Below are positions 21,415-61,002 of a DNA stretch of 64,000 nucleotides, piece by piece. The stretch comes from Sycon ciliatum. Taxonomy: Eukaryota; Porifera; Calcarea; Leucosolenida; Sycettidae. The stretch covers positions 18,114,775 through 18,178,774 of the forward strand of contig NC_088643.1 of the NCBI RefSeq assembly GCF_964019385.1. Reading direction: 5' to 3'. The first letter of the stretch is position 1, and each line of letters opens with the position of its first letter. The translations under genes and the position numbers were made by a program. A model generated the notes under the pieces. It did not search any database and was not told the DNA's origin. It saw only the letters and a program-made list of their open reading frames with translations.

Positions 21415-24400
21415 CACACAGCAGGTACTTGCGGACCAAACAGGACTGTAATCCCTGGCATGAGCACACACGTTCGCACACACAGCATGACGTACTTGTG
21501 CACCAAACAATACTGATCCCAGATCCGCGCACACACAGATCAGCTACAGTGCTGGCAACTGAAATCCGACCCCCTGGGCGGCGCGTTCACTTTCTAGCGG
21601 CCTCTATTTCGGGTCTGTGCGATGCGAGTTGTGAGCGCACTGCTCAGGGGGTCGGATTTCAGTTGCCAGTACTGGACATGTAAGCCACATGGGACTATGT
21701 GAGCCACATCAACATGAAAGCAGAGTACAGCCACCACCCACCTCCAGTACGGTCAGTGCCGGGATGCGGAACATCTGATGTTTCTCAAACATGCTGGTCC
21801 ACGCCTCGTTGTACGTGACGGGCCCGGACGAGCGGCTCTCGAACAGGCATTTGACATTGGAGACCGTCAGCGGCTTGCTGAGCAGGTCCAGCTCAAAGTT
21901 GCAGCACATGTCAAAGTGAGCGGCGATGTCCTGTGGGGAGACCAGTGGCTCGCGGTAAGCAGCCAGTGCCTGCATGTAGAAACAGAACGTGCTCAGTGAT
22001 TACGCCCAGTGCTCAGTGATTACGCCCAGTGCTCATCCCAACAAGGACAGCGACAACATTGCCCAGGGGAGTAACTCGCACATGTGTGCTGTGGTGACTT
22101 TGTACCACTGGCAACTTCATAACTGCAATGTTGCCCATTTCGACTACCGTAATGTCGCGTATAAAAGCAGGTGCTTACAGCCGTATAAGCCGGAGTTTAG
22201 GCCGTGCTTCTATTCAAGATATGCTTCTATTCAGAACATGCTTCTACATGTCAACATTTTCAGTCTACACTGTACAGTGTACATTGTCACACATGTAGTG
22301 TGCAAGTACATGTGCTTCTACTCAAACCATGCTTCTGTGTCATGGCACGCTTTGGAAAATCGGCTTCTATTCAAGTCATGCTTCTATACAGTTCATGCTT
22401 CTATACAGGCCATGCTTTTATACGCTACACTACAGTATGTAGTATCGACGACGGCCATTTGCTGGTGTGGTGAACGGACTACGCTCACTACACACGAGCT
22501 TTGTGCCCGAGTGCCCGTTGTGAAATCTGATCGCGCGAGCGCCAGGCGCTGTGCAGCCCCTAGACCGCCGAACACTGTGATGTGACCTGGCTCAGGGCCC
22601 CTGTTTGCCACACGCGGTCTGACTTCATTCAGCAGCACTGTACTTGCCCCACGTAGGACAACGTATCCTGGACCCACGTACATTATAACTATATAGACAC
22701 AAGAAATCCTCGGTGTATTTATTTCAGCCCTAGTAATAATCATTGCAATATACGCAGCAGCTTGATTTTCCTGGCTGCAGTAATTAGTGTATTTTGGTTG
22801 ATGCATCTTGTTTCTGCAACTAGACCAAGACTTGGCACCAGGCCAGTTCTCCTGTGTACAGTCTCCTGCATTGGGGACTTCTCGGCAATCAAAACAAGGC
22901 ACTGGTGCATGCGTGCTGTAGACATTCTGAACGGACAGTCGGCCAGTTGGCCAGCTGACCAACTGATCTACAAAAAGCGGACATGCTGGTGTGTGATACC
23001 AAGAGTACATTAACCAGAGTGTGCAACTGTGCATATCAGATCTGAAACAGCGCAGTTCGTGCACTACGTCACCCTGGTGAGGTCAGCCAAGCCGCGACTT
23101 GTGTACAGCTCAATTTTTCGTGTTTCACAGACCGGAAATCAACGAAGTTTGCATGATTTTAGTCATCCTGTTTTAGGATTTCGGTGTTTTTGTGCGACTG
23201 CGTATGCTGCGTACATCCGCTGATAAGTAAATTCACCAGGCTATCCGTTTCAAAAAACCGAAATCAGGACAAACTCAGTAACCTGCACCACCGTGACTGG
23301 TTACGCAACCTTTCACCGTACCTGTGGCTTACCATGCCGTCAGAAATGACGTACTGCACGAATTACGCTCCCACAGGAACCATCCCGAGTTGCACACCCT
23401 AGTTTATGTACTCTTGGTGATACCATGCGTCCTCTGTTACAAAAACATCTAATCTAGCTTGAGTGGTCAAGCGGGTGCGCAGTAAGCCCATCTTCAAAGA
23501 GACTAATTCCACACACCAAAACCATAGCCAGAGGTACCGTAGTTTTCGGAGCATAAGCCACACTGTTAACACCAGTAATTCACCCAAAAAATGGCAGTGC
23601 AGCGTATACTACGTTGATTGAATTAACCTTGATAAATAGGGTAGATGTCTGTATTTCGTGACAAGAATCTAGGTGTGGTTTATACTCCCGGAAAATATGG
23701 TATCCAGCAGGTAAGGGGTTTGTACTGACCGAGAAGTAGCGCTTCAGTTGCCGACGCATGGACACGAATCCAATTGACTGACCGCAGCGTTTCATAGCAA
23801 TCATGCACTTGCCAGTGCTTCACAAGCGGATACGCACATAACACAAACACCACACAGATGTACAGTTGAGTACAGCCTGGATTGCGGCACACCAAAAGCT
23901 ACAGAATCACAAACTTACAAATTATCGCCGAAGTCGCAACCACTACTTCGTACTGTTGTGCCCAGCGCGGGCTTGCGACTAGTTGGTTTGGAGGTGACAG
24001 CGTTGCGAATGACCGAGGGTCCTCGACGTCTGTCTCACCGTCCAGGAGCGACACTGACTCACGCTGCTATCTGGTGTTCACGAGGTGTTTGTCGCGCTGG
24101 AAACGGAGCGTCTCTGTAAGTTTGTATCCCTGGTGATGTTTGTGCCTGGAGAGCACTATATAAGTGGTGCTCTTCAGGCACAATCTTCCTCAGCCTACTC
24201 AAGCTCAACTGATGAGGGGTGAATTCCCCGAAACACTGTGTATTGAGCAGGGAGTGGTGCTTTCTTGCAGGTTTGCCGAGTCGAAGGTTCGATGGACTTC
24301 TCGTGTGCTCTGGATGGCAGTCGTGAGTCAGTCAAGTGTCAAGTAAAGTCGGCGGAATAGCGCGAGCTCCGGTGTGGGGAGCAAACCCTTTCTTAGAATC

Positions 24401-26394
24401 ACAAACTGGCTAAAAAAACTCCAACGGAGTGAGCAAATAATAGTCAATCCTCGGTAGTATAGTGGTAAGTATCTCCGCCTGTCACGCGGAAGACCCGGGT
24501 TCGATTCCCGGCCGGGGAGGACATTTCTTTTTTGAAGAGGAACAAGGAGATAGATGACAGCCCTGGCCCCAACCAATCGCAGTAAGTAAGGGGTCGTCGC
24601 AAAAGTTTTCTGTCGTCCTTGAAACGAACATCGTTCATTTCGTACTCGGACCCCCTCCCCTCCCTCTGAAACGAACACAGCTTGCTATGCTGGACGACAA
24701 AAATCGCATTCATATACATATCTTATGTACAGTGTCGGTCGACTTGCGATTTTGGCTCGCACCCCCTGCCCCCCAAATGAATCATGTTCGACAAAAAACT
24801 TTTGCGACGACCCCTAAGTGTTCAAGTTGTTTTACTTGTCTGGATATGAGCACCTACTTTTCAGAACCACTTTTTCACTGAAAATAGGACGCTGCGCACA
24901 AACCTGGCAGCAACAGAATACTTTCAAGCACAACGGCGCACTGTCACAATACCTGGGTTCTCTGGCGTTCAACTATGTGATCTTACTGAAAATAGCAACA
25001 TGCAAGGTAGAATGATAACAAAGGTCGAAAGATTACAACTTGCATACCAACATACAGTCAAACCTGTCAAGGTGACCACTCGGATCAGGCGACCACCAGT
25101 CCTAGAAGACCACTACAGCCAGGTCCTAGGGATACTACATTTGTTTTGAATTTCCCGTCAAATGTCCCTGGATAAGGAGACCACCTGGTAAAAGAGACCA
25201 CATTTTGAAGGTCCCTCGAACGGTCGTCTTGGACAGGCTTCGTGTACATACCGGTACTCAGAGCAGGTGCATGGACTCCTTACCTCGGATGTCGCTTTAG
25301 CACTGCCACACCGCAGCTGACGAGCACGGGCAGGGGGTTCTTGCTGATCACGCACACGCAGTCAATGGCCGTCCAGTGCGCGTGGCCCTTCTTCGACACC
25401 TCGATGCGCGCCCGCAGCTTGATCAGGCAGTCGCCATCGCTGATCTGGCGCATGCGTCCGCCACTACCCAGGCGGATCACTAGTGAGTTGTGCTGGTCCA
25501 GGTATTGCTGTGCAGGAATGCCGCAACAGACAAACGGAAAGCTCGTAGAGAACAGAATAGGATATGGTCTTGCTCCTGTTTGGCTTCTCGCCTCCTCGTA
25601 ACTGCTAGAGAACAAATCAGCTGCAAGACTTTGCGACAAGAACTATTCCATTCACTATTGCATTGCGAGCAGCAGATATCACAGTCATAACGACCAAACC
25701 AAGTGGCCGCGGAGTCATTCTTTTGACGTGGTCTGCAGTTTATTAAAAAAAACTGTTCATCAAGCTGTTTTCGGCGTACCTATTGCTACACATAAACGCT
25801 ACCGGCGTGCTTGCATACACTTACGTTGGTGTTCTCCCGCTGGCAGTAGAGGCGGAATGAGACATTCTTGTCACCGACCAGTGCTATGCCTGTGTCCAGC
25901 CAGCACTGGCCGACGTGCACGCAGTCCAGACCCAGCTCTCGCAGATCGGCAAAACTGCCCGCGCCTCCGCCAACGCTCTGCGGCACGCCCGTGTTGTGAG
26001 CAGCGCCACCGTACGCCAAAGACCGGTGATGTCCCTTGCCGCCACGACCACCGCCCGCGCCGCCCAGGCTGGTGACCCGGATGACGGCGTTGGCGTTACC
26101 GGCCCTCTGCAGCGCTGGACCGCTGGTCACGCGAGCACTGCTGCTCAGCTTGTTCAGTGCGTTGGCCGGCAGTGCTGCGCGCCCCGCTTTGCCGCCGCCA
26201 CCGCCACCGCCGCCTTTGCTTTTCTCATGCTGCTGCGGATGCTGCGGTTGATGCGGCCGCGGTGGCGGTGGATGCTGCTGCTGCTGTTTCTGCGGCTGCT
26301 TCTGCGGCGACTTTGGTGTGAGCGGTGGCACGCTGTCAACCTTAATGTGGCATACATACATTCTGCCAGGATACGGGACGATTTCGGTGGACAT
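20323..26394 (-). CDS. Unrecognised protein with divergent Nudix-like C-terminal domain
   Basis: Five exons, all phase-consistent: 26394-25825, 25507-25284, 23817-23730, 21969-21742 and 21291-20323, giving 692 residues. I do not recognise the family. The N-terminus ([11 protein letters not shown]) is followed by a low-complexity stretch rich in Q, P, H and then G (about 20-130). Residues 150-370 look globular ([31 protein letters not shown]). The last exon opens with a pattern like a Nudix box: WTLPKG at 391-396 and REL-KAETSL at 415-423. The canonical REUxEExGU is broken, with the first Glu of the EE pair replaced by Ala419 and the Gly by Ser422, and the Gly-to-REL spacing is about five residues longer than normal, so hydrolase activity is doubtful. 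The tail (about 500-692) is acidic and Ser-rich. Intron 2 contains a tRNA gene and a hammerhead element on the opposite strand. An upstream 5' non-coding exon cannot be excluded. Confidence 0.75.
21331..21420. repeat. (CA)n microsatellite
   Basis: Two CA runs split by GCACGTGTGCGTGTGCGCC, just upstream in the gene sense of exon 5 of the Nudix-like gene. Confidence 0.94.
21547..21674. mobile_element. CAGTGCTGGCAACTG MITE family, copy 1
   Basis: Inverted ends CAGTGCTGGCAACTGAAATC and GATTTCAGTTGCCAGTACTG (one mismatch), about 128 bp. Copies 2 and 3 are at 39338-39487 and 62491-62567. The start resembles hAT ends, but no 8-bp duplication is clear. Confidence 0.82.
22147..22432. mobile_element. 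GTATAAAAGC repeat family, copy 2
   Basis: Same 5' block as copy 1 (TACCGTAATGTCGCG) and a 3' end GCTTTTATACGCTACACTA. Several GCTTCTATxCA repeats lie between. In intron 3 of the Nudix-like gene. Confidence 0.7.
23916..24394 (+). mobile_element. Hammerhead-ribozyme retroelement, copy A (retrozyme- or Penelope-like, non-autonomous)
   Basis: A 479-bp insertion flanked by a perfect 13-bp direct repeat AGAATCACAAACT at 23903-23915 and 24395-24407. Its start (ATCGCCGAAGTCGCAACC near 23925) and end (GGAGCAAACCC near 24380) recur joined together in copy B at 59630-59752. Inside are a hairpin with 16-bp imperfect arms (24141-24156 and 24168-24183) whose loop holds a TATATAA sequence, and a type I hammerhead ribozyme at 24203-24248. 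No protein frame is supported. A target-site duplication of this length without terminal inverted repeats fits retrotransposition. The class (retrozyme or non-autonomous Penelope-like) is inferred from the ribozyme. Confidence 0.8.
24203..24248 (+). ncRNA. Type I hammerhead ribozyme
   Basis: All core parts are present in order. Stem I pairs GCTCAA (24203-24208) with TTGAGC (24243-24248). The CTGATGA core is at 24209-24215. Stem II is GGGG/CCCC (24216-24219, 24226-24229) with loop TGAATT. GAAA is at 24230-24233. Stem III is a minimal ACA/TGT helix closed by three bases, followed by A at 24242 as the cleavage-site H17 (GUA triplet). A very short stem III is typical of animal and retrozyme type I hammerheads that work best as dimers. 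Activity is not proven by sequence alone. Confidence 0.85.
24448..24519 (+). tRNA. tRNA-Asp (anticodon GTC)
   Basis: A 72-nt tRNA with an intact cloverleaf. The acceptor stem pairs TCCTCGG (24448-24454) with CCGGGGA (24512-24518), with one T-G wobble, and has discriminator G at 24519. The anticodon loop reads CTGTCAC with GTC, and the T arm has GGTTCGATTCC. The D arm carries the A-box-like TAGTATAGTGGT. No intron is seen and no CCA is encoded. A T-run (TTTCTTTTTT) about 6 nt after the gene is a plausible RNA polymerase III terminator. It sits antisense within intron 2 of the Nudix-like gene, 53 bp after a hammerhead retroelement and 80 bp before a Harbinger-type MITE. Confidence 0.96.
24600..24814. 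mobile_element. Harbinger-like MITE with TAA target site
   Basis: TAA at 24597-24599 and 24815-24817 flank inverted ends GGGGTCGTCGCAAAAGTTTT and AAAACTTTTGCGACGACCCC, near-perfect over about 27 bp. 80 bp after the tRNA gene. Confidence 0.85.
25055..25244. mobile_element. Tc1/mariner-like MITE (CAGTCAAACCTGTC), copy 1
   Basis: TA-flanked; ends CAGTCAAACCTGTCAAG and GGACAGGCTTCGTG. GGAGACCACCTGGTAA inside is shared with copy 2 at 39130-39273. Confidence 0.75.
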
Positions 26395-29500: not shown

Positions 29501-29979
29501 GTACACGGAAAGCAACATGGCAATAGCATAAAGCCTGAGGCAGCTCTGATAAATACAGCACGATGACATTCAAATCGCCATAATAATTATTATCCAGGAG
29601 AATCTCAATATTCATCACTCCATAGTAATTTTTAACCATGATGGACAGATAATAACCTGATAAGCATTCCAACACAACATGTCGATGATGTCATATCACT
29701 AAAACAATATTATCACTGGTCGGCATTCGACCTGAGCTTCCATAAAACCACACCAATGGCAGCGACTTCAAATATGTTTGGTCAAGGCTAGGGGCTCCCT
29801 GTTAAGTATGGTTGCATGTGTGGATGGGTATGGGGGGAGGGGAGGGGACACTTTCCTTTCAAGGCTTACTTGACTACACAAGGACATGATAGTTTATGTC
29901 TTTGCACTAGCTTCCCATCATTGAAGTCATACAAGGTACTACAAGCCTATGGCTCCTTGCTCCTTGGCTCCCTGCGGCG
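26511..29979. other. Spacer between P5CS 3' end and Nudix-like gene 5' end
   Basis: No gene supported. Holds a SINE-like repeat (27305-27410), a C-run (28612-28632), a repeat at 28640-28935 related to about 38731-38900 (CATGCGTTxxxxxxTGCCAACA, TTGGTCxGGTGATGACC), and a weak hammerhead-like motif near 29120-29150. Confidence 0.5.
27305..27412 (-). mobile_element. SINE-like dispersed repeat, uninterrupted copy
   Basis: Read on the minus strand it matches 61990-62067 plus 62433-62465: TTCCAAGCAAT, TAGCCAATGACC, TTGCGTGGCGATTGCAGGG. It starts in an AT-rich TTTATTTTATT stretch. No pol III promoter boxes were identified, so SINE is a guess. Confidence 0.65.
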
Positions 29980-45379
<15,400 letters not shown>

Positions 45380-58600: not shown

Positions 58601-61002
58601 GTCGGGCACTAACAAGCCATAAGGCCCTCCCTGCCATGCACTAACCTATAAGTAAAGTCTTGTATAAAAGCCGCGGCTTCTATGACTTTCTCGGTGAAAT
58701 TTTGCAGCCTTCTATATGAGACAGGCTTCTATACAAGACAGGTATTTCTATGTATGTCAGCACTAAAACCAGGCTTATGTGTGATTTGGTGGGCCCAAAA
58801 TTGCGGCTTCTATTCAAGTGCGGCTTTTATACAAGACTTTACCGTAGGTAAAAATTACCTGTACCGAAGTAAAGTCACTGAAAATAAATTTCCACCAAAA
58901 ATTTCTGGTTTTACAGTACTGTCCTCGACCTTACCCATCCTCGTTCCTGAACTCTATGAAGTCGGGCTCGGCGAGCCTAGGGACGAACTTCAGACAGGTG
59001 CTTCCCTCCCAGCTGTATATTGCGGCTCTGACGGCAAACATTCGCTCCTCGTCTGTAGTGAAAAAACAGCGCATCCATGCATGAGCTTTCCCCCGGGCCT
59101 CCACTCGCCTTCACTACTCACTGCTAATGAATAATTCCCAGCACACCATTGCACATGTACAGTCAACCTTCCGAAAATTGACCCTCAATCATGCATGAGA
59201 AAAGTGTCGCTATTCGAAAGTTGTTGTTATAGGCGAGGTCGAAAGTGTGCAGGCGAATGATGACCAAGTCTTGAGGTTTTGTCGCTGTTCGCGAGTTGTT
59301 GATATCAATTTTATGAGGTTGACTGTAGCGACGGCACATGTTATGGGCGGCTTGAAACCGAACAGGGTAAACTTGCACATGGCTGCACACTTCCGCATTG
59401 CGAGCCTTCAGTGCTCCATGCGTGAAGGACATCAATCTAGAATGTAAAATGTAGTTCTACTGGCCGCGCTGCCTCCAACCACTTTAGGAGCTTCGTCTGC
59501 GCCTTGATTCTCGAGGGTGGTGGCGTTCCTATGGATGCGGAACAAAGCCTCACAGACTGTGAAAAACTAACGGTATGAATATTGTAGCAAAGGTACTCCT
59601 TTCACCGGTATTATCCACATCACCAATTGGGAATGGGTTTGCTCCCACACTGGAGCTCGCGCTATTCCGCCGACTTGACTTGACACTTGCTCCAGTGTGG
59701 GAGCAAACCCATTCCTAAAAAAACATCGCCGAAGTCGCAACCACTATTTCGAACATCACCAATTGTCTTCGTATAGAATACATTGCATGCATCGGACTCC
59801 GGTAGTCACTGAAGAGTAGGCCATTGAGCTAGTGCAGTGAAACAGTGGAAGCAGTAGTCAACTTTGCGTATAACAACACTCGGCCGGGCATCATAAAAGT
59901 GTCCTTATTCGCGAAGTGTCATTATACCCAAAGTCTCATTATATGTATACAGGTAGTATGGACTTTGCTCTGGGCATGGAAATTCTGTCGTTATTCGCGA
60001 ATTGTCGTTATATCCGCGGTCGTTATTAGCGAAGTTGACTGTAGTGCCAAGTAGAATATTCACTTACCATGTTGTATTGAGGAGTGGATGGAGAAGGGGA
60101 TTATGCCATTGGACCACAGTCGTTCATAGGTGCTTGTAGAGGCACGGCGATAACGTGCTACACTACCGCCAGACACTTGAGCGTTGCGGGCCTGGGGCTC
60201 AGGTTCTTGCTGTTCGTCTTCGGGTGGCAGCTGGATGTCTCCTTGATACAGTGACTTGATTGAGTCATACTCTGAAATGGCGAACAAAAGGTGTGTTTAA
60301 AGAAGACGCAAAGCGCAGAACATTTTGTAGGGTACCTCAACTCGAACTTTCCAAATACGGTCTCTTCGCTGCACATGTCACTTCAAAATAAATAAATAAT
60401 TGAATTCACCAAAATATTATTTTCGGGTATGGCCCATATCCTCAGGGTGAAAACATTCAACTAAGTTCGTTATAATGCAACTAAGTGGTCAGCCGCTTAG
60501 CAATCATGCCTACGTAATCACACAAACCTTGGTTGATATCCATCTCGTCCTGCTTGGGTTGCTTGAGGACGTCGGGGTAGAGCTGGCTGAGCGGCTTCAG
60601 GTCGGCCAGCAGATGAAAAGGCTGCTCCGGATCATACAGGCTGCTGCTGCTTGGCCGTCCATTGCCATGAGCGTGCAAACGTGGCTCACCTGTCTCGCCA
60701 TGGTCTTCTCGCGAAAACGTTCCCTGAAAGCGAAAAGATGAGCGGGGCCGTCCTTCATTCGACCACTCGTCAACTAAGTGCTCACTTTCGGTCACGCTCC
60801 TCTGCCTTTCGATTTCAGATCTGTCTTCCTCGTTTATGGAAAGCGCTAATTCTTTACCTTGAATTATGAGGACACCACAAATACTGAGAAAAAGTAGCCG
60901 AAAAACAACGGGAATGATCCGAATCAGCTCATTTCTTCTTCTTCTCCGGCTTGCTACAAAGCGCAGGAGCGACAGCGCTGCCATGTGCACAGCCGCCATC
61001 AT
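52637..61002 (-). CDS. Astacin-EGF-GON metalloprotease
   Basis: Seven exons: 61002-60528, 60271-60068, 59052-58935, 57417-56993, 56320-56183, 55965-55865 and 53134-52637. Phases all agree, giving 652 residues. The N-terminus has a basic stretch and one hydrophobic segment (about 28-48), either a late signal peptide or a type II anchor. The propeptide ends with YQGD (167-170), matching the astacin aspartate-switch FxGD, and RYRR (198-201), a furin-like site. The astacin domain has the full zinc site HEIGHALGLWHEHSRPDRD (His 294, 298, 304; Glu295) and Met-turn SIMHYGPRSF. A short EGF-like module follows (CHNGGTWSDGGCLC, CETR), then a GON domain (about 458-652) with YCLGM, GDCYS, INLSGSGMQF and KCGGWCGQC, the signature cysteine blocks of ADAMTS9/20. 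No CUB, TSP1 or ShK module is seen. The 118-bp exon at 58935-59052 was found by hand (SWEGSTCLKFVPR). Confidence 0.9.
53168..53350. mobile_element. GTATAAAAGC repeat family, copy 3 (diverged)
   Basis: ACAGTAATGCCGCGTACTAAAGC start and AGGCTTCTAT repeats, in the last intron of the astacin-GON gene. Confidence 0.6.
53380..53621. mobile_element. TA-flanked MITE with about 28-bp perfect ends
   Basis: CTGTATAGCAGGAAATTTTC at the start and its exact reverse complement at the end, TA at 53378-53379 and 53622-53623. Tc1/mariner- or pogo-like. In the last intron of the astacin-GON gene. Confidence 0.88.
54719..54800. repeat. Two tandem units of about 42 bp
   Basis: TTTACACTATGAACGATGCT followed by GGTGAGGGGCTT occurs twice in a row. 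No gene assigned to the surrounding frame. Confidence 0.85.
55151..55357. mobile_element. TA-flanked MITE (CTGTAAA ends)
   Basis: CTGTAAACTGTGAAATT start and AATTTCACGCTTTACAG end, TA on both sides. The interior has GCGAAATT motifs in both orientations. Confidence 0.7.
58659..58846. mobile_element. GTATAAAAGC repeat family, copy 4
   Basis: AAGTCTTGTATAAAAGCCGC at one end and GGCTTTTATACAAGACTTTAC at the other give good terminal inverted repeats, with AGGCTTCTAT-type repeats inside. Confidence 0.7.
59160..59325. mobile_element. TA-flanked MITE (CAGTCAACCT)
   Basis: CAGTCAACCTTCCGAAAATTG and CAATTTTATGAGGTTGACTG ends with TA on both sides. A related but diverged element is at about 59857-60042 (GTCAACTTTGCG ... 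GCGAAGTTGACTG). In intron 2 of the astacin-GON gene. Confidence 0.75.
59630..59752 (+). mobile_element. Hammerhead-element family, rearranged copy B
   Basis: A 123-bp insertion flanked by a perfect 13-bp repeat ACATCACCAATTG at 59617-59629 and 59753-59765. It holds three pieces of copy A: the 3' end inverted (59630-59688), the 3' end direct (from 59689), and then, after a short A-run, the 5' start ATCGCCGAAGTCGC. The ribozyme itself is absent. It lies in intron 2 of the astacin-GON gene. Confidence 0.78.

Follow-up and report, generated by a model that had tools for sequence, protein, structure and literature searches.

A probable non-autonomous hammerhead retroelement of Sycon ciliatum with insertion ends resembling those of Penelope-like elements

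A 479-bp insertion (element A) in the 64,000-nt stretch of Sycon ciliatum DNA analysed here (hereafter, the window) is probably a non-autonomous hammerhead retroelement that was mobilised in trans by the machinery of Penelope-like elements (PLEs), from a tandem or circular template RNA that continued past the element's own 3′ end. Element A is PLE-like in mechanism and is not itself a PLE. The features observed in its sequence and in that of a second insertion (copy D) are the target-site duplications of both, a common 3′ end, a tail, two opposed pieces, a unit-length match and the base pairing of a hammerhead ribozyme (Table 1). A sequence-only reading of this DNA had already described A as an inserted hammerhead retroelement with a target-site duplication, and this description is supported: A is non-coding, and its ends are matched by copy D.

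Table 1. Coordinates of element A, copy D and their parts in the window.
Feature	Position	Strand	Remark
Left 13-bp target-site duplication, copy A	23903..23915	.	AGAATCACAAACT
Element A, one complete unit	23916..24394	+	479 bp
Tail sequence at the 5′ start of A	23916..23950	+	Stem-loop 23929–23950 (fold; loop CGCAACCACT); 85 per cent identity over 40 bp to the tail region of copy D
Palindrome centred on TATATAAG (24157–24164)	24130..24193	.	Putative promoter
Type I hammerhead ribozyme (predicted)	24195..24257	+	Core from 24209; predicted cut after A24242
Short frame from the ATG inside the hammerhead core to TAA	24212..24346	+	44 codons, the longest frame in A from this ATG
3′ end of element A	24333..24394	+	93 per cent identity over 60 bp to copy D; end same within 1 nt
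Right 13-bp target-site duplication, copy A	24395..24407	.	
Left 13-bp target-site duplication, copy D	59617..59629	.	ACATCACCAATTG
Copy D, final 59 nt of the element with the 3′ end first	59630..59688	-	
Copy D, opposed piece, final 27 nt of the element	59689..59715	+	Exact reverse complement of 59630–59656
Copy D, 37-nt tail beyond the element's 3′ end	59716..59752	+	
Right 13-bp target-site duplication, copy D	59753..59765	.	

Element A has a GC content of 53.4 per cent and is enclosed by exact 13-bp direct repeats, recovered at both borders of the 479-bp insertion as first described. By itself, such a repeat is weak evidence of insertion: random windows (n = 50) contain a mean of 0.82 pairs of 13-mers 100–700 bp apart, and the real window contains 1701 such overlapping pairs, with all of those listed (60) belonging to a single duplication at 305–1285. 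The repeat of A counts because a second insertion, with a 13-bp repeat of its own, also fixes both ends of the element. That insertion was found in a BLAST search of positions 23851–24560 against the window, which returned a match at 59631–59754 in both orientations. Copy D is a 123-bp insertion between 13-bp repeats (59617–59765 in total) and is a partial member of the same family. The duplications of A and D differ in sequence and are both 13 bp long. Lacking the ribozyme, D is limited to the 3′-terminal 59 nt of the element and the 37-nt tail, which forms a stem-loop with an AC-rich loop and matches the first bases of A. The absence of any other copy with the same ends had been named as grounds for abandoning the sequence-only reading; copy D provides one within the window, albeit a partial one without a ribozyme.

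Each piece of D looks like cDNA begun on a different strand of the cut target: one begins at the 3′ end of the element (the final base of A, 24394, is the putative reverse-transcription start site 1) and the other after the tail (59752, the putative start site 2). Two such cDNA-like starts, one of them after the tail, suggest that the template RNA extended past the element's end. This arrangement has counterparts among PLEs. As described in the portions of PMC11167929 consulted here, extension by the purified Anolis PLE occurs on both target strands, with initiation inside its RNA at two neighbouring sites; initiation is mainly at an AC-rich stem-loop, and the long-known tail of 30–40 bp corresponds to the interval between the sites. 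The opposed pieces of copy D likewise start 37 nt from each other, and an AC-rich stem-loop separates their starts. Penelope elements of Adineta have inverted pseudo-LTRs, an optional 31-bp tail, a TATA motif that can be read bidirectionally, and palindromes (excerpts of PMC3846280), and D, with exact inverted arms of 27 nt and a 37-nt tail, as in pseudo-LTRs, is a miniature of the Adineta and Anolis arrangement. The order of parts in A is also pseudo-LTR-like: a TATA motif in a palindrome is followed by a hammerhead whose core contains an ATG and then by the putative start site. The hammerhead of the Anolis PLE cuts 26 bp into the ORF (same portions of PMC11167929), and the predicted cut in A is at nt 31 of the frame that starts at the core ATG. 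A type I hammerhead in a pseudo-LTR, a feature of PLEs, is present in A only and not in D. Target duplications are 13 bp long in A and D, compared to 8–10 bp in Adineta Penelope (excerpts of PMC3846280).

Unlike Penelope- and Poseidon-type PLEs, A and D come with no reverse transcriptase (RT) or GIY-YIG ORF found here, and their unit is 479 bp long. A Pfam scan of 20 of the 24 window ORFs of at least 150 aa detected an astacin domain and a GON domain, which point to an animal host, and no RT or GIY-YIG domain. Because no telomerase-like RT/GIY-YIG ORF was found among those scanned, we do not class A as an autonomous PLE. The sequence-only reading had left the choice between a retrozyme and a Penelope-like element open; copy D favours Penelope-type mobilisation.

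The hammerhead of A has a complete core (CUGAUGA, with GUA at the predicted cut), which is beyond chance. Its inner stem I has 6 bp, stem II has 4 bp and the weak stem III at most 3 bp, and six further stem I pairs (24195–24200/24252–24257) lie beyond an AA/AGG internal loop. A search requiring stems I, II and III of at least 6, 4 and 3 bp yielded one match in the window and none in 300 first-order Markov sequences; with looser stems (at least 4, 3 and 2 bp), three matches were obtained, against a simulated mean of 0.007. The type I hammerhead with every core base and a 6-bp stem I that had been noticed in the sequence-only reading is confirmed. In the ensemble of the monomer, pairing probabilities are 0.38–0.88 for inner stem I, 0.99 for stem II and only 0.05–0.08 for stem III. 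Rfam returned no hammerhead family at the gathering score, nor at E-values up to 5 over 23800–24560, and the local fold around the hammerhead is unexceptional compared to shuffled sequences (z = −1.53; 16 of 200 as good). The predicted circular fold retains stem II, but an upstream CUCAA engages the 3′ strand of stem I, which may mask the ribozyme in circular RNA. Given the weakness of stem III in the monomer, fast cleavage by the monomer seems less likely than cleavage as a dimer or with help from a protein; protein-assisted cleavage is reported for the Anolis PLE (PMC11167929, in the portions consulted).

The length of A carries information about its template. From AAACCC near the 3′ end to ATCGCCG near the 5′ start, the two ends of A sum to 14 nt, which is also the length of the uninterrupted stretch in D; A is therefore exactly one unit, starting and ending at site 1. 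Relative to the predicted ribozyme cut, A is permuted (327 nt before and 152 nt after), and its template was therefore something other than a linear monomer released by ribozyme cleavage. A single lap around a circular RNA would directly explain a unit-length A, and a linear multimer on which synthesis ended at the following site 1 is an equally good possibility. The predicted 479-nt circle folds much more stably than its shuffles (z = −6.3; none of 100 as low). Metazoan non-LTR retrozymes are characterised by genomic tandem repeats and abundant circular RNA, and PLEs by tandem or partial-tandem copies; element A is a single monomer in the window, and neither tandem nor partial-tandem copies were seen there. 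We tentatively raise the possibility that PLE-type reverse transcription made exactly one lap around a circular RNA generated by the hammerhead, that A preserves the product of this lap, and that the 5′ end of A stops at the start of synthesis. If true, this one-lap reading would be evidence from a genome for the mobilisation of circular ribozyme RNAs by PLEs, which is the proposed link between retrozymes and PLEs.

In the cycle that we infer for mobilisation in trans, transcription would start downstream of the TATA palindrome (TATATAAG is present once in the window), and the hammerhead would cut RNA spanning more than one unit. A PLE protein would bind this RNA in the region of its 3′ end and tail and would cut both target strands, 13 bp apart. 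Reverse transcription would begin inside the RNA, with site 1 at the 3′ end and site 2 following the 37-nt tail as alternative starts; both would be recorded in copy D, one per strand, and copy A would record a start at site 1 followed by synthesis of exactly one unit. Against this reading stand the number of insertions, just two, and the absence of a ribozyme from D, which could stem from an autonomous parent. The lack of PLE coding sequence in the 20 ORFs scanned, duplications longer than those of Adineta Penelope, the weakness of stem III in the monomer and the absence of an Rfam hammerhead hit also count against it. Moreover, in the Anolis system, ribozyme mutants had no effect on in vitro insertion, unprocessed RNA was apparently the main substrate, and zero reads ended at the ribozyme cut site (PMC11167929, in the portions consulted). 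These Anolis results speak against the need for a ribozyme or a circle. Self-priming, which the Adineta authors proposed as the source of palindromic junctions (excerpts of PMC3846280), might also account for the one in D.

Alternatively, A could have come from an autonomous PLE, either by internal deletion of one copy or as a solo pseudo-LTR, with D as another, short copy of that PLE. PLE tails are located within the ORF, and in D (59630–59752) one frame is open for 31 codons through the 3′ end and the tail, where the matching region of A has a stop and a frameshifting extra G; D may thus be descended from a coding, autonomous parent. The position of the ATG inside the hammerhead, as in the Anolis PLE in the portions of its description consulted, also agrees with such an origin. 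However, 31 open codons in one of three frames are unremarkable (by our arithmetic, about 0.23 per frame by chance), a random deletion need not produce exactly one unit between two site-1 ends, and no coding sequence was recognised in A. We therefore regard a deleted PLE as unlikely. Even more doubtful is that A is an ordinary metazoan non-LTR retrozyme for which a LINE-type reverse transcriptase did the copying, with D as a twin-priming inversion. In twin priming, the inverted part derives from upstream RNA, whereas the inverted part of D comes from beyond the element's 3′ end, and a poly-A or simple-repeat 3′ tail is absent. As characterised in the sections of PMC7229834 available to us, metazoan non-LTR retrozymes are non-coding, have a type I hammerhead, are 170–400 nt long with a GC content below 50 per cent, and have duplications longer than 4 bp. 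Element A resembles them in its type I hammerhead, its lack of LTRs and coding sequence, its strongly self-paired predicted circle and the length of its duplication, but exceeds these published ranges with 479 nt and 53.4 per cent GC, and is a single monomer in the window. The PLE-type end signature of A and D is unmentioned for metazoan retrozymes in those sections.

It would also be conceivable that a dispersed hammerhead motif happens to lie between chance-matching 13-bp repeats, without any insertion. Pairs of 13-mers do arise in random windows at the frequency given above, and the window contains two more hammerheads without a convincing duplication. Yet a 13-bp match at fixed ends has a chance of 1.5e-8, and D shares the element's end, which a separate 13-bp duplication directly adjoins there; this leaves this explanation with hardly any credibility.

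Other hammerhead elements place the proposed mobilisation of A by PLE machinery in context. PLEs have been considered strong candidates for moving animal retrozymes, on circumstantial grounds in the sections of PMC7229834 available to us, and are also named a strong candidate for retrozyme mobilisation in the excerpts of PMC7761336. As to which enzyme spreads animal hammerhead retrozymes, the anatomy of A and D points to PLE-type priming. Sm-alpha of Schistosoma mansoni resembles A in its excerpted description, as a short non-autonomous SINE-like repeat that also has a type I hammerhead. Plant LTR retrozymes are non-autonomous hammerhead elements like A, but have type III hammerheads, LTRs and 4-bp duplications, in contrast to the type I hammerhead, lack of LTRs and 13-bp duplication of A (excerpts of PMC7761336). 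Among the titles and abstract beginnings listed for open-licence papers on retrozymes and Penelope, we found no report of a tail-bearing hammerhead element. Viral contigs contained no exact match to a 20-mer from the 5′ region of A or to its hammerhead pattern. A 16-mer of the element occurs in at least 119 stretches of genome contigs (257 billion bases); this is at chance level, all of the matches listed are from bacteria or archaea, and none was used.

The two other hammerheads of the window are both of type I. One (30212–30300, plus strand; core at 30232) has stems II, I and III of 5 bp each, and the other (40510–40580, minus strand; core from 40566) has a palindromic stem III; about 70 bp of the two can be aligned, at 71 per cent. 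The surroundings of the hammerhead at 40566 yielded only poly-C runs and 8–10-bp matches, with no convincing duplication. The 12-mer GCCGAAGTCGCA of the tail stem-loop recurs at 30724–30735 (plus strand), 492 bp after the hammerhead at 30232, and is possibly the tail of another element. No direct repeat of at least 8 bp surrounds this copy in the ranges tried, and a 12-bp repeat at 29531 and 30792 was rejected as a duplication, as an exon seemingly lies between its two copies (by eye).

A tRNA-Asp gene (24448–24519) starts 41 bp past the right duplication of A. It is the sole tRNA gene found in the window, so copy D has no tRNA neighbour, and we therefore do not claim targeting. Just past this gene, inverted repeats of 34 nt (24589–24815; 88 per cent complementary, 159 nt apart) look like a small DNA transposon (MITE). 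At 305–1285, within which no hammerhead was found, a 494-bp unit is duplicated head to tail with 100 per cent identity, and this duplication is either very recent or an assembly artefact.
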